Source: an uncultured SAR86 cluster bacterium (GTDB lineage: Bacteria; Pseudomonadota; Gammaproteobacteria; Magnimaribacterales; AG-339-G14). Taken from it: a stretch of 64,000 nt of DNA. This document shows positions 53,116 through 58,771 of this stretch, one piece after another (the first letter of the stretch is position 1; each line of letters opens with the position of its first letter). The position numbers were made by a program, and so were the translations under genes. Location of the stretch: positions 1 through 64,000 of the forward strand of contig CACJRI010000008.1 of NCBI GenBank assembly GCA_902595715.1, given 5' to 3'. A model generated the notes under the pieces. It did no database searches and was not told the DNA's origin. It was given only the letters and a program-made list of their open reading frames with translations.

Positions 53116-55011
53116 ATGACGGAATATATCCACCCTTTAAATATGCTCAGCGCGTCTGAGATAAGTGATGCAGTTTCAATTCTAAAAAAGTCTAAAGCAG
53201 AACATGAAAATTCTTCCTTTAGTTATATTTCGTTAGAGGAACCAGACAAAAAGTTACTGAAAAAAAATACCAACTTAGAAAGGATTGTAAAAGTTGTAGG
53301 CGTTGACCAAAAATCTAATGGTTTTGAAGCTGAAATAAATCTGTCTGCTAAAAAACTTTTAAAAGAAAAAGAAATTTCTAATTCAGCAGGACCCACTTAC
53401 ACATTGGCTGAAATCTTTAATGCTATTGAGTTAACAATGTCAGACAAAAATTACCAAGCAGCTTTGGAGAAAAGAGGCATTAAAGATTTAAGTCTTATTC
53501 AAATAGATCCATGGCCAGGCGGGGGCTTTATTAACAAAAATATAAAAAAAGGAAACAGAGCACTCAGGGCCATATCCTTTTTAAAAGATAGTGAAAAGGA
53601 TAATGCCTATGCTCGTCCCATCCAAGGTTTGATTGCACATGTAGACCTAACAGAGAAGAAAGTTGTAGAGATTGAAGATCATGGTGTTGTAAGGGTACCT
53701 GAAGCTCATGCAAGATATGATAAAGACGGCCAAGAATCTCTGAGAGAAACTCCCAAAGAAATTGCTATCACCCAACCTGATGGTGTTGGATTTTCAGTTG
53801 AAGCTAACTTAATTTCATGGGAGGGCTGGAAACTAAGGGCTTCTATTGATCCCATAGAAGGCTTGGCATTGCAGGAGGTCTCTTTGAATGATAGACCAAT
53901 TTTTTATAGAGCGGGTCTATCAGATATGGTGGTGCCCTATGGATCTTCTGACCCCATGCATTGGTGGAAAGCAGTTCATGATGGAACTGAATATGGATTC
54001 GGTACTATGACAAACTCTTTAACTTTAGGGTGCGATTGTCTTGGAGAAATTTATTATTTAGACGCTTATAAGTTAGCATTCGATGGTTCTGTTGAAACTA
54101 TTGAGAATGCAATATGTATTCATGAAGAAGATTATGGCGTGCAATGGAAACATAATGATTCCACTCAAATGGGATACAACGAAGTAAGGCGATCACGTCG
54201 TCTTGTAGTCAGTTCCTTTGCAACCATTGGTAACTATGATTACGGGATATTTTGGTACTTATACTTAGACGGTACGATCCAATTGGAGATAAAACTCACA
54301 GGCGTGGTTGGTATTAGTGCCTATCATGAAGATATTCATAAATCCGGACAAGATTTTAAAATTTCTCCTGAATTAGCTTCTCCAATACACCAACATCTTT
54401 TCAATGTAAGAATTGATTGGGATTTGGATGACGGTGACAATCAATTATTTGAAACAAACGTAGAGCCCTTACCAATCGATGAAATAAATCCAAATGGAAC
54501 TCAATTTCAGGCCGTCTCTTCGCATTTAACAAAGGAGAGTGAAGCGCAGAGGAATATTGCTCCAGAAAAAAGTCGTACTTGGAAAATTGTTAATCCCAAC
54601 AAGCTAAACAAAGTTGGTTTGCCGACAGCCTACAAGATACTATATGGAAACACACCAACTCTGCTTTCCAATCCTGACTCTCCGCCAGGGAAAAGAGCTG
54701 CATTTGCGAAACATAATATTTGGGCAACACCGTTCCAGAACGAAGAAAGATCAGGGGGCGGCAGACACACGGTTATGCATTCTGGAGAGGGCGGCTTAGA
54801 AGAGATTACGGCACAAGACAGAAATATAAGCGAATGCGACTTGGTTACATGGCTTACTTTTGGAGTAACTCATTTACCACGTCCGGAAGACTGGCCTGTA
54901 ATGCCCGTAGAGTATTGCGGAGTCCACTTAATTCCGGTTGGCTTCTTTGATCAAAACCCAACAATTAATCTTCCTCCCAGTTGTTCTTCTAAGTCAAAAA
55001 GCAATAAGTAG
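53116..55011 (+). CDS. Copper-containing primary-amine oxidase
   Basis: This enzyme oxidises primary amines to aldehydes with release of NH3 and H2O2. The 631-aa protein contains the TPQ precursor motif N373-Y374-D375, the likely catalytic-base Asp289 in AVHDGTEYG, and copper ligands H425-x-H427 (IHQHLFN) with H586 (VTHLPRP) at the spacing known for E. coli TynA. No signal peptide is present, so it should be cytoplasmic, as in many aerobic bacteria. Length is typical for the core enzyme. An MBL-fold protein and a PhyH dioxygenase follow on the same strand. Confidence 0.93.
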   Translation: MTEYIHPLNMLSASEISDAVSILKKSKAEHENSSFSYISLEEPDKKLLKKNTNLERIVKVVGVDQKSNGFEAEINLSAKKLLKEKEISNSAGPTYTLAEIFNAIELTMSDKNYQAALEKRGIKDLSLIQIDPWPGGGFINKNIKKGNRALRAISFLKDSEKDNAYARPIQGLIAHVDLTEKKVVEIEDHGVVRVPEAHARYDKDGQESLRETPKEIAITQPDGVGFSVEANLISWEGWKLRASIDPIEGLALQEVSLNDRPIFYRAGLSDMVVPYGSSDPMHWWKAVHDGTEYGFGTMTNSLTLGCDCLGEIYYLDAYKLAFDGSVETIENAICIHEEDYGVQWKHNDSTQMGYNEVRRSRRLVVSSFATIGNYDYGIFWYLYLDGTIQLEIKLTGVVGISAYHEDIHKSGQDFKISPELASPIHQHLFNVRIDWDLDDGDNQLFETNVEPLPIDEINPNGTQFQAVSSHLTKESEAQRNIAPEKSRTWKIVNPNKLNKVGLPTAYKILYGNTPTLLSNPDSPPGKRAAFAKHNIWATPFQNEERSGGGRHTVMHSGEGGLEEITAQDRNISECDLVTWLTFGVTHLPRPEDWPVMPVEYCGVHLIPVGFFDQNPTINLPPSCSSKSKSNK

Positions 55012-55023
55012 TAAGGACTTGTT

Positions 55024-56742
55024 ATGAGCGTAAAAGATTCTTTCAACCCAGGAGTTACAAAAACAGGTCCCAAGGGGCAATTGGCTCATCCTACAACTTT
55101 GGAACACAGCAAGCGTTTAGAAAAAAAGCTTTATAAAGTCGGTGATAATGCTTGGTCTTTAATTGGCAATGGCCTTTCCAACCAATCATTTGTTGAGGGG
55201 CCTGAAGGTTTGATTTGTATTGATACTGGAGAAAGCAATCAGGAGATGGCAGCAGCCCTGCAGGAAGTGAGAAAAGAAACTCAAGCTCCAGTTGTTGCAT
55301 GTATTTATACCCATTTTCACTATGTTGGCGGCACCCAAACACTTGTCGATGAAAATAAAAATCTAGCAATTTGGGGGCATGATGGTATTCAAGCTAACTT
55401 AGATAGATTTGGTGGAGAGGTTGCACCAAGAGTAACAAGAGGTTTGGCTCATCAATTTGCGACATCCATGCCCCAAGAAGGGCCTGATGGTATTGTTAAT
55501 TTAGGACTGGGAAATTTCTTTCGAAACCCAGATCATGCTCCTTTCACTAATGGTTATATTCCACCAAAACACACTTTTGTTGAGCCGACAAAAGCAAAAA
55601 TAGCTGGCTTAAAAGTGGAGTTTTTTCCAGCCCCATCCGATGCAACCGATTCCATCACAATTTGGTTTCCTGATTTAAAGCTCGCTATAAATAATCTTTT
55701 GTGGCCAGTTTTGTTCAATGTTTTTGCTATTAGAGGGGAAGAATATCGAGACCCCCGAATTATGATGAAAGGTTTAGATCAACTAGCTGAGCTTGAAGCA
55801 GAAAATTTGATTGGTGCTCATGGTCCACCATTTTCAGGGCAAAAAGAAATAAAAAAAATAATTGTAAATTATCGAGATACTTTGCAATTTTTGTGGGATC
55901 AAACTGTAAGATGCGCTAACAAGGGTTTAACTTTAAATGAAGCCATAAGCACGATTAAACTTCCGAATCATTTTCAAGAACATTACACTACGCAACAGTT
56001 ATATGGTGTAGTAGAGCATCATGTTAGACAAATCTATTCTGGTCTTTTTGGATGGTTTGATGAGGACGAGGCAAACCTTTTTCCAGTTCCTTCTCCAGAA
56101 AGATCTATCCGTCTAATAGAAGGCTTTGGTGGAATTGAAAAGGTGAGGACAATCATTGATTCCTCCTTGAAAGCAGAGGATTTTCGTTGGGCCATAGAGC
56201 TTTCTTCATGGCTGGTCCGCTCAAATTTGAATGCTCAGGGTATTGCAGATGCTGGAGAGCCTGAAGACCGCAAGCGTTTAGCTGCTGCGCTCAGAGGAGT
56301 AGCTTATACAACTTCTGCTGCAAATATAAGGAACTGGTGTATAACCAGAGCTCTTGAGCTGGACGAATCTTTGAATTTAAGTCGTTTCAGGAAGCACCGT
56401 TTCAATAAAAGAGAGCTAGCGAGACGTACTCCCATTGATTCATTGAAGTTATTACGGGTACTTTTGATTCCAGAAAAGGCAGATTCTTATGCTCAAACAT
56501 TAGAATTTAATTTTCTTGATGATGAAAATATTTCTTACTCAATTAGAAACTCCGTAGCAGTAATTGATAAAAAGTCTGAAGGAAGTATTTCTTTAAGTTT
56601 ATCTTCAGATACTTGGTACGATCTTTTGAGTATGAGAAAAACTTTTTCAGAAACTCAAGAAGAAGCTTTAGTACAAATGAGTAACTCTGAAGAGGTAAAA
56701 AAATTCTTTTCTTGTTTTGACCTTGAATCTTTAAATAGCTGA
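55024..56742 (+). CDS. MBL-fold alkyl-sulfatase-like protein with altered metal motif
   Basis: This 572-aa protein resembles the alkyl sulfatase (SdsA1/BDS1) group: an MBL domain (about 30-290), then an alkylsulfatase dimerisation domain (LFGWFDEDEANLFPVPSPER) and a C-terminal SCP2-like lipid-binding domain (about 450-570). Canonical members have THxHxDH; here residues 96-103 are T-H97-F-H99-Y-V-G-G, so the Asp and third His are missing. The downstream H-G-P-P (LIGAHGPPFSG) is kept. The protein may bind metal differently or have another substrate. It follows the amine oxidase by 12 nt. Confidence 0.85.
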   Translation: MSVKDSFNPGVTKTGPKGQLAHPTTLEHSKRLEKKLYKVGDNAWSLIGNGLSNQSFVEGPEGLICIDTGESNQEMAAALQEVRKETQAPVVACIYTHFHYVGGTQTLVDENKNLAIWGHDGIQANLDRFGGEVAPRVTRGLAHQFATSMPQEGPDGIVNLGLGNFFRNPDHAPFTNGYIPPKHTFVEPTKAKIAGLKVEFFPAPSDATDSITIWFPDLKLAINNLLWPVLFNVFAIRGEEYRDPRIMMKGLDQLAELEAENLIGAHGPPFSGQKEIKKIIVNYRDTLQFLWDQTVRCANKGLTLNEAISTIKLPNHFQEHYTTQQLYGVVEHHVRQIYSGLFGWFDEDEANLFPVPSPERSIRLIEGFGGIEKVRTIIDSSLKAEDFRWAIELSSWLVRSNLNAQGIADAGEPEDRKRLAAALRGVAYTTSAANIRNWCITRALELDESLNLSRFRKHRFNKRELARRTPIDSLKLLRVLLIPEKADSYAQTLEFNFLDDENISYSIRNSVAVIDKKSEGSISLSLSSDTWYDLLSMRKTFSETQEEALVQMSNSEEVKKFFSCFDLESLNS

Positions 56743-56933: not shown

Positions 56934-57731
56934 ATGAAGTTGGAATTACACGAAAAAAATAAATCTTTTACATGGAAACAAAAAACCCCTCCATTTAGCT
57001 TTCTTTCTAAAGCACAAGTTCAACAATATGACGAACAAGGGTTCTTTCTTCTAAAAGGAGCGTTTTCAAAAGAAGAAATCGATCAAGTCTTAAATGAAAT
57101 AGACCCTTTTGAGAAAAAAATAACAGAAGATCTTCGTCTACATAAGGATGGAAAGTTTTTAATTTCTAGAGCAGACGACATTACATTTACAACTCATTTA
57201 GTTATGTATTCAAATTTCTTAAAATCATTTGCAAGTCATGAAGTTTTTAAAGGTTTGTGCCAGGATTTAATCGGTGGAGACGTAAGATTGTATTGGGATC
57301 AAGCCGTATATAAGAAAGCAGATACATTAGAAGATTTTCCCTGGCACCAAGACAATGGCTATACCTTTGTTAATCCTCAAGCCTATTTAACTTGTTGGAT
57401 ACCCTTAACCGACACTGATGAATCAAATGGCTGTCCTTGGGTTATTCCAAAATTACACAAAATGGGAACGCTTAAGCATGATATCACTGAACTAGGCTAT
57501 AAAATAAAACTTGATGATTCGGATGCTGTTGCAGTTCCAGCAAAAGCAGGAGATATTGTGGTCTTTTCTTCTTTAACCCCTCATTGCACAGGACCAAACA
57601 AAACAGACTTAACTAGAAAATCTTACATTCTTCAGTATGCCCCTAATGGTGCGGTTCGTTATCCGCCTTTTTCTGATAAAGAAGAGGCAAATAATCCCGA
57701 TAGACAGTTTTTTGTAAACAGAGAGTCTTAG
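56934..57731 (+). CDS. Phytanoyl-CoA dioxygenase (PhyH) family protein
   Basis: This Fe(II)/2-oxoglutarate-dependent dioxygenase has 265 aa. The metal triad is visible as H138-Q-D140 (PWHQDNG) and H217 (TPHCTGPN), with a following Arg (DLTRKSYIL) likely binding 2-oxoglutarate. AYLTCWIPLTDTDESNGC is also characteristic of PhyH. It has no signal peptide. Family members hydroxylate fatty acyl-CoAs, small acids or phosphonates, so the substrate cannot be named. It converges with the SDR gene, overlapping by 4 bases. Confidence 0.88.
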   Translation: MKLELHEKNKSFTWKQKTPPFSFLSKAQVQQYDEQGFFLLKGAFSKEEIDQVLNEIDPFEKKITEDLRLHKDGKFLISRADDITFTTHLVMYSNFLKSFASHEVFKGLCQDLIGGDVRLYWDQAVYKKADTLEDFPWHQDNGYTFVNPQAYLTCWIPLTDTDESNGCPWVIPKLHKMGTLKHDITELGYKIKLDDSDAVAVPAKAGDIVVFSSLTPHCTGPNKTDLTRKSYILQYAPNGAVRYPPFSDKEEANNPDRQFFVNRES

Positions 57732-58771
57732 TCTTCTATTAAGCCAAATTCTTTGGCGCTCTCAGCGGCAGATTTTACGGCCTCTTTAGCGGATCTTGGA
57801 TTCCAGCCTAACAAATTTCTTGCTTGTGAAGAATCCATGCTTCTTTCTTTGCCTAAGCCTTCAGCAATCATTTTCAAAGCGGGCAGGAAAAGTGCCAGAA
57901 ACTTAATTAGCCAGTTTGGCGCTACTCTCTTTGGAATTTTAGAAGCAGATTCTGGAAAAAGTTCCGAGAGATACTCATTTTGATCTTTCATGAACATATT
58001 TTCTGCTGAGCAAACAAATCGTTTACCTGCGGCTTCAGGTTTAGTCATCGCTAATATTTCAAGTGAGGCTACATCTCTTACGTCAACAACACCCATATCC
58101 CAATTTGGAACAATTGGATATTTACCATTCATCATATCTAGAATTGCACCTACGCTAACGCCAAAATCTTCCTCTAAAATTGGGCCGAAAACCATTGCCG
58201 GCAAAACTGTAGAAAGTTCCATGCCGGAAGTATCCTGTTTCATGAAATCCCAAGCAGCTTGTTCAGCTAAAGTTTTTGATTTCGCATACACGTTGGTTGT
58301 TTTGCTTTTCGGATCGGTCCAATCTTCTTCATTAAAAACACCTTGTTTGTCGGTGCCGTACATAATTGCGGCTACAGAGGAAGTAATGACTACTCTTTTA
58401 ACCCCAGCTTTTGAAGCAGCTCTTAAAACTCTCAGCGTTCCTTCTACAGCAGGCTTAACCATTTCATCTTCATCCTTTGGCAATTGCATGGCAATTGGTG
58501 ATGCTACGTGCAAAACATAATCACATCCTGCCATGGCTTCATCCCAACCTTCATCGGAAGATAAATTCGTTACCTGCCAATCAACGGAAAGATCTGATTT
58601 TCCTTCATATTTTTCTAAGCCATATAAAAGCGTTTGGTTGAGTTTATTGGTTCTGGATAAGTCTCTTACCGTTGCTTTGACTTGAAAACCTGCTGCAGCA
58701 AGCTGAATAATACAATGCGAAGCAATAAATCCTGATCCACCTGTTACTAATACTGTTTCTTTATTTTCCAT
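57728..58771 (-). CDS. NAD(P)-dependent extended SDR (dihydroflavonol-reductase-like)
   Basis: This 347-aa reductase has the N-terminal Rossmann motif VLVTGGSGFIASHCIIQL (TGGSGFIA), the region HVASPIAMQLP, and the catalytic Y-x-x-x-K in TNVYAKSKTLAEQAAW. It resembles the aldehyde/dihydroflavonol-4-reductase branch of extended SDRs. It probably reduces an aldehyde or ketone with NADPH. Divergence from the DUF4212/SSS genes leaves a 64-bp promoter interval. Confidence 0.88.
   Translation of the reverse strand: MENKETVLVTGGSGFIASHCIIQLAAAGFQVKATVRDLSRTNKLNQTLLYGLEKYEGKSDLSVDWQVTNLSSDEGWDEAMAGCDYVLHVASPIAMQLPKDEDEMVKPAVEGTLRVLRAASKAGVKRVVITSSVAAIMYGTDKQGVFNEEDWTDPKSKTTNVYAKSKTLAEQAAWDFMKQDTSGMELSTVLPAMVFGPILEEDFGVSVGAILDMMNGKYPIVPNWDMGVVDVRDVASLEILAMTKPEAAGKRFVCSAENMFMKDQNEYLSELFPESASKIPKRVAPNWLIKFLALFLPALKMIAEGLGKERSMDSSQARNLLGWNPRSAKEAVKSAAESAKEFGLIED

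Follow-up and report, generated by a model that had tools for sequence, protein, structure and literature searches.

We analysed a window of 64,000 nucleotides from an uncultured SAR86 cluster bacterium, whose genome is represented by a 1.2-Mb assembly estimated to be 83% complete. The gene under study, P0001 (55024-56742 including the stop codon, + strand), is an uninterrupted open reading frame whose coding part (55024-56739) specifies a protein of 572 residues, an alkylsulfatase-like MBL-fold protein with an altered metal site. Immediately upstream lies the gene of a copper amine oxidase (primary-amine oxidase) of 631 aa (53116-55011, + strand), identified by its Pfam match of 464 bits and by the NCBIfam model NF008559 at 717 bits, and after a gap of about 190 bp P0001 is followed by the gene of a PhyH-family dioxygenase (56934-57731, + strand; Pfam PhyH, 109.8 bits). 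Further downstream, an open reading frame of 176 aa (57990-58520, + strand) is wholly antisense to a dehydrogenase gene (57728-58771) and is probably spurious. Elsewhere in the same genome, a second MBL-fold protein, distantly related and some 430 aa long (L002, G000:C6:72018-73145), has an intact THHHVDH motif.

Regarding its architecture, P0001 has the three domains of type III alkylsulfatases, i.e., an alpha-beta-beta-alpha MBL domain, a dimerisation domain and an SCP2-like domain, as a sequence-only reading of the window had claimed. Indeed, Pfam reports Alkyl_sulf_dimr at 92.8 bits (cut-off 26) and Lactamase_B at 22.9, just above its cut-off of 22.7, while Alkyl_sulf_C, at 22.7, falls under its cut-off of 27. 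Against a profile of 16 canonical relatives from the same order, residues 24-566 were aligned with a probability of 100 and 28% identity. Moreover, an AlphaFold2 model built from 35 subfamily sequences (mean pLDDT 85.6, pTM 0.85; weak at about residues 131-170 and 231-240) found as its best PDB matches with Foldseek and VIA the alkylsulfatases SdsA1, SdsAP, Pisa1 and YjcS, and the MBL domain is recovered by these fold matches as well as by Pfam. In VIA, the model superposes on SdsA1 (2cg2) with a Z of 31.8 over 460 residues at an rmsd of 20.9, and on 2cfz with a Z of 31.6 over 381 residues at an rmsd of 8.6; the high full-length rmsd of the model may reflect domains oriented differently.

In place of the THxHxDH signature of type III alkylsulfatases, P0001 reads T96-H97-F98-H99-Y100-V101-G102-G103-T104 (55309-55335, + strand), exactly as noticed in the sequence-only reading. 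Of the 14 histidines of the protein, only H97 and H99 form an HxH pair and HxHxDH occurs nowhere, so that an intact ligand motif elsewhere in the protein was rejected. An orthologue is present in 14 of the 16 genomes of this SAR86 genus, and all 14 sequences, the window included, have THFHYVGG, the other 13 being 80-93% identical to P0001. One of these orthologues, in a SAR86 MAG (L015, G003:C2:42579-44292), is split into 494 aa in frame and a separate 82-residue C-terminal match, as from a frameshift or an assembly error. Scanning genome contigs more widely recovered 61 loci, a lower bound since the queries were two peptide patterns that miss distant members, and [TS]H[FS]HY[VI]xG was found in all 58 that are readable (the exceptions being the truncated L089 and L091, and L090 with its motif masked), a count in which the 13 loci of the SAR86 genus (L032-L044) are the same organisms as the 13 other orthologues, counted again. 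The sequence-only reading had proposed to examine the conservation of HxHYVGG by a subfamily alignment; in the wider form HxHY[VI]xG it is conserved, and with 14 of 14 SAR86 sequences and 58 of 58 readable loci the motif is neither chance nor a sequencing error.

The 61 loci belong to SAR86, K189A, HTCC2089-like and other Gammaproteobacteria or Pseudomonadales MAGs, together with one labelled just Proteobacteria, two Acidimicrobiaceae bins, one Flammeovirgaceae bin and one Dehalococcoidia bin, mis-binning being possible for the last two. Gammaproteobacteria do not generally carry the motif: among 369 sampled genomes of the class its DNA pattern was found in one, the window's own, and when a class sample of similar size was searched with a profile, matches at E 1e-60 came from 7 of 369 genomes, the other six with an intact HxHxDH. 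Six peptide patterns found no relatives in viral contigs, and among the titles and abstract openings of the literature searched no description of the subfamily was found.

In a tree of 62 rows, the 37 sampled subfamily rows (P0001 itself, 3 rows from other SAR86 and 33 from the remaining loci, with near-duplicates, fragments and masked loci omitted) fall on one side of a single branch with a support of 100/100 and a stem length of 2.71. This monophyly supports the suggestion of the earlier reading that P0001 represents a subfamily with other ligands or another reaction. The nearest rows are of the YjcS type, a placement that is less sure since these rows are themselves long-branched. Among the 37 subfamily rows, 106 of 572 positions are invariant overall and 66 of 258 in the MBL domain. 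The SAR86 copies of P0001 are under strong purifying selection: for 13 SAR86 genes (78 pairs), the median Nei-Gojobori dN/dS was 0.057 (67 pairs with finite dS), and by part it was 0.040 for the MBL domain (74 pairs) and 0.143 for the C-terminal part (46 pairs). The gene is therefore not decaying, and the argument against decay that had been drawn from its overall preservation holds.

The metal site was compared residue by residue in an alignment of the 37 subfamily rows with 26 canonical rows, which include L002, the distant paralogue from the same genome, and contain the L021 locus a second time as L102. According to an excerpt of its description, SdsAP binds one zinc ion (site A) through D196, H197, H367 and E322 and the other (site B) through H192, H194, E303 and E322 (PMC5426288); these numbers were transferred to alignment columns by motif order, and not by a residue-level structural alignment. 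H97 and H99 of P0001 correspond to H192 and H194, and neither is replaced in any of the 37 subfamily rows. The D196 column and the one preceding it are gaps in all 37, i.e., two residues are missing, the aspartate included, and the H197 column, histidine in 26/26 canonical rows, is Y100 in 37/37 subfamily rows. Placing this two-residue gap is an ambiguous alignment choice on which the assignment of the histidines to sites depends; wherever it is put, the motif is without the Asp and without one His.

Two further ligand positions have changed as well. The stretch A203-P-S-D206-A-T-D209-S210 (55630-55653, + strand) is the counterpart of APGETxDQ, and there D206 replaces the site-B glutamate, E303 in the SdsAP excerpt (PMC5426288): this column is Asp in 37/37 subfamily rows and Glu in 25/26 canonical ones. 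In N223-N224 (55690-55695, + strand), N224 replaces the bridging carboxylate, E322 of SdsAP, with Asn in all 37 subfamily rows and, in the canonical rows, Asp in 22 and Glu in 4 of 26. Of the two acidic ligands given for SdsAP, P0001 thus has neither, carrying D206 and N224 instead. The change to D206 is not disqualifying alone, since Pisa1, in the same excerpt (PMC5426288), has an Asp at the position of E303; N224 is. H266 (55819-55821, + strand), the counterpart of the site-A ligand H367, is kept in 37/37 subfamily and 26/26 canonical rows.

In the segment F231-N232-V-F-A-I-R237 (55714-55734, + strand), where model confidence is low (pLDDT 59 for block 231-240), the alignment shows the Asn/Arg pair N232 and R237 kept in all 37 subfamily rows. 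In SdsA1, this pair is the sulfate clamp. A histidine of Pisa1 acts as a proton donor, as stated in an excerpt of PMC3920027. At this column P0001 has F231, which says little alone since the canonical control rows are mostly without that histidine too (Pro in 24/26). Position 317 of the Pisa1 chain is the histidine aligned with F231, and it is presumably the proton donor in question. In the dimerisation domain, E331-H332-H333 (56014-56022, + strand) is invariant in the subfamily rows, while in the 26 canonical rows the columns of H332 and H333 are mostly Trp (19) and Ser (22), respectively.

Judged by the ligands published for SdsAP (PMC5426288), the dinuclear site is altered, as had been predicted from the motif, and the alteration extends beyond what that reading saw: two residues are missing, the site-B Glu has become Asp206, the bridging Asp/Glu has become Asn224 and a Phe stands at the proton-donor position. 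The subfamily keeps the fold of type III alkylsulfatases and lacks both their motif and their bridging carboxylate. As the HxH-carboxylate site is of ligand type and invariant, and the other site is reduced to H266, a single metal is predicted, and the likeliest reading of these residues is that P0001 would be a one-metal His2-Asp enzyme and not a dinuclear zinc alkylsulfatase. For the site only, a precedent within the MBL fold is the persulfide dioxygenase ETHE1, with one metal on a His2-Asp site; one-metal enzymes of this kind retain HxHxDH and are members of a different branch.

Several alternatives have to be weighed against a one-metal enzyme. The best of them, improbable in our view, is a pseudoenzyme or binding protein with a dead metal site, whose pocket (HxHY, D206, N224, N232/R237 and H266) would bind a sulfated ligand or deliver it to a neighbouring enzyme, or which would serve as a structural partner. 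It would account for the loss of the Asp, the third His and the bridging carboxylate and for the tight gene coupling described below, and the MBL fold does include proteins without a bound metal, namely the class-C type-2 flavodiiron proteins (PMC7785958). However, the three site-B positions and His266 are of ligand type and invariant in 37/37 rows, the change from Glu to D206 is conservative, and retention of HxH together with an Asp is not expected of a metal-free pocket. Slightly less probable again is a hydrolase that is still dinuclear, with a second metal held by new ligands, e.g., Tyr100, His266, Asn224 and perhaps His332/His333: no subfamily row deviates from Y100, H332 or H333, where canonical proteins have His, mostly Trp and mostly Ser, respectively, and H266 is kept, but the bridging-carboxylate column is an Asn. 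It is very improbable that P0001 is a standard alkylsulfatase with its real ligands elsewhere, or that the gene has decayed or was mis-sequenced, despite its overall homology to SdsA1, Pisa1 and YjcS and the split MAG orthologue (G003), given its one HxH pair, the missing HxHxDH, the motif in every readable locus and the dN/dS, the last two of which led us to reject decay or mis-sequencing.

As to cellular location, a simple hydropathy test, which starts each frame at its first Met and is not a signal-peptide predictor, found a hydrophobic N-terminal stretch in 22 of 22 scorable canonical rows (out of 25, with L002 left out and L102 and L021 both counted) versus 0 of 37 subfamily rows. This difference suggests a move from the envelope to the cytosol, and, on such a sequence criterion, the subfamily proteins are probably cytosolic. 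Applied to the partner sulfatases described next, the same test flagged 7 of 29, the first catalytic strand of these proteins falling inside the tested stretch.

Outside the SAR86 genus, 48 loci could be considered, and one cluster of formylglycine-type arylsulfatases is encoded beside the MBL gene at 29 of them and absent at 19, two of which (L059 and L082) end too soon to tell. With the exception of L083, where the two genes are convergent, and L090, where the sulfatase lies beside the masked member, the sulfatase gene is on the same strand and immediately downstream (27 of 29), with gaps of -11 to 22 bp in 20 of these 27 and a one-base overlap in four, the start being taken as the first ATG. 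C-x-P-x-R was found in all 29 linked sulfatases, and the one of L045 is a PF00884 protein whose closest PDB entry is the P. aeruginosa arylsulfatase PAS (1hdh, 4cxk; 191 bits). Distances between MBL proteins and between their sulfatases are strongly correlated (26 pairs, Mantel r 0.94, with 0 of 5000 permutations as high), a correlation that shared species descent alone could give. At 16 canonical control loci (14 of the same order and 2 from more distant class members, mostly in small streamlined genomes), no such sulfatase was found by tblastn at E 1e-5 in the 12-14 kb taken per locus.

Sulfatases of any kind are common in the searched genomes (3-23 matches each), so that the weight of this association rests on the recurrence of the same cluster and not on the presence of any sulfatase. 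In 17 of the 19 genomes without the neighbour, searched with three neighbour-bearing genomes as positives, no close copy was found elsewhere, the best full-length match having 39% identity. The genome of the window, at its 83% completeness, likewise yielded no orthologue of the linked sulfatase and a distant sulfatase only, and within the SAR86 genus the best match had 36% identity over part of the length. As SAR86 and several other lineages are without the linked arylsulfatase, the subfamily protein does not strictly depend on that partner.

In SAR86, the conserved neighbour is the copper amine oxidase, whose gene lies directly upstream of the P0001 orthologue in 14/14 loci with a gap of 6-15 bp. 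Of the 16 genus genomes, the 14 that have one of these genes also have the other; the remaining two, whose assemblies are 78% and 86% complete, have neither, and in each of them the loss of one contig could have removed both. The PhyH gene (cluster 16) is in just 6 of the 14 SAR86 loci. PhyH-type genes adjoin the MBL gene in SAR86 (56934-57731) as well as in a sulfatase-linked context (L069:4739-5890), the proteins being of different clusters.

Genes for nitrile hydratase, VOC, GST, Rieske, SDR, luciferase-like, TauD, PhyH, sulfotransferase (near the L057 member), PQQ-type and isocitrate-lyase proteins were also encountered, each type near some members only, and an attempt to assign a substrate from them led nowhere. 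In L045, L048, L049 and L051, the MBL-sulfatase pair directly follows genes for the beta and alpha subunits of nitrile hydratase (families tested on L045, whose clusters the others share). An isocitrate lyase gene is 101-194 bp away at 7 loci (family tested in L067), an adjacency that may be mere synteny. A TauD-family dioxygenase gene stands upstream of members without the linked arylsulfatase (L064:4315-5502, and L065; Pfam run on L064 only); the TauD family includes type II alkylsulfatases.

These observations show the subfamily, its residue changes, the constraint on it, its gene linkage and, by prediction, its fold; from them we infer a metal count, a catalytic activity, a kind of substrate and a cellular location. 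The best explanation as a whole, to which we give roughly even chances, is a distinct and maintained branch of the MBL fold made of cytosolic one-metal enzymes working beside an arylsulfatase or an amine oxidase. In such a scheme, an actively maintained branch of the type III alkylsulfatases, seen mostly in marine Gammaproteobacteria and at two loci of Acidimicrobiaceae bins, would have had its ancestral dinuclear zinc site cut to, most likely, one metal on His97, His99 and Asp206. With the bridging carboxylate and the Asp/His half of the second site lost, the space left empty would be lined by His266, Tyr100 and Asn224. To judge by the Asn232/Arg237 pair, the substrate would still be an anionic small molecule, probably sulfated or similar. 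The partner would probably be the formylglycine arylsulfatase in many lineages and the copper amine oxidase in SAR86, and the intermediate might be hydrolysed or otherwise transformed by one-metal chemistry. A bolder version, which we hold only tentatively, is that of a new one-metal class that arose from dinuclear type III sulfatases and shifted from the envelope to the cytosol, with a His2-Asp site possibly for a metal other than zinc, acting on a sulfated or desulfated metabolite with an arylsulfatase partner, and re-partnered in SAR86 with the copper amine oxidase.

Canonical relatives are annotated as alkyl sulfatase dimerization domain-containing protein, a label that invites a reading of sulfate release from detergents or lipids. 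Members of the present subfamily probably do not release sulfate by the known two-zinc mechanism. As a clade that naturally lacks two residues of the MBL signature and is still under strong constraint, they lend themselves to testing how a dinuclear hydrolase turns into a mononuclear or a non-catalytic protein, and the arylsulfatase that recurs beside them is a concrete handle on the substrate.

Among known systems, the P. aeruginosa arylsulfatase PAS is a relative of the linked partner and not of P0001. Canonical alkylsulfatase-like proteins from other families of the same order (THxHxDH, HAPGET, GDN and PSH motifs) share the architecture of P0001 at about 30% identity; unlike it, they have intact dinuclear motifs (16/16 fetched) and a hydrophobic N-terminus. 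None of the 16 control loci has a linked arylsulfatase. YjcS of E. coli (4pdx) and its plasmid-borne relatives from Caballeronia and Nitratireductor, the nearest canonical group in the tree, also differ from P0001 in keeping HxHxDH and the bridging carboxylate in the alignment. With SdsA1, SdsAP and Pisa1, finally, P0001 shares the fold, the domain order, a near full-length alignment, the HxH, the site-A histidine and the Asn/Arg pair, whereas it differs from them by THxHYV in place of THxHxDH, by D206, N224 and F231, and by an overall identity of 22-24% (VIA).
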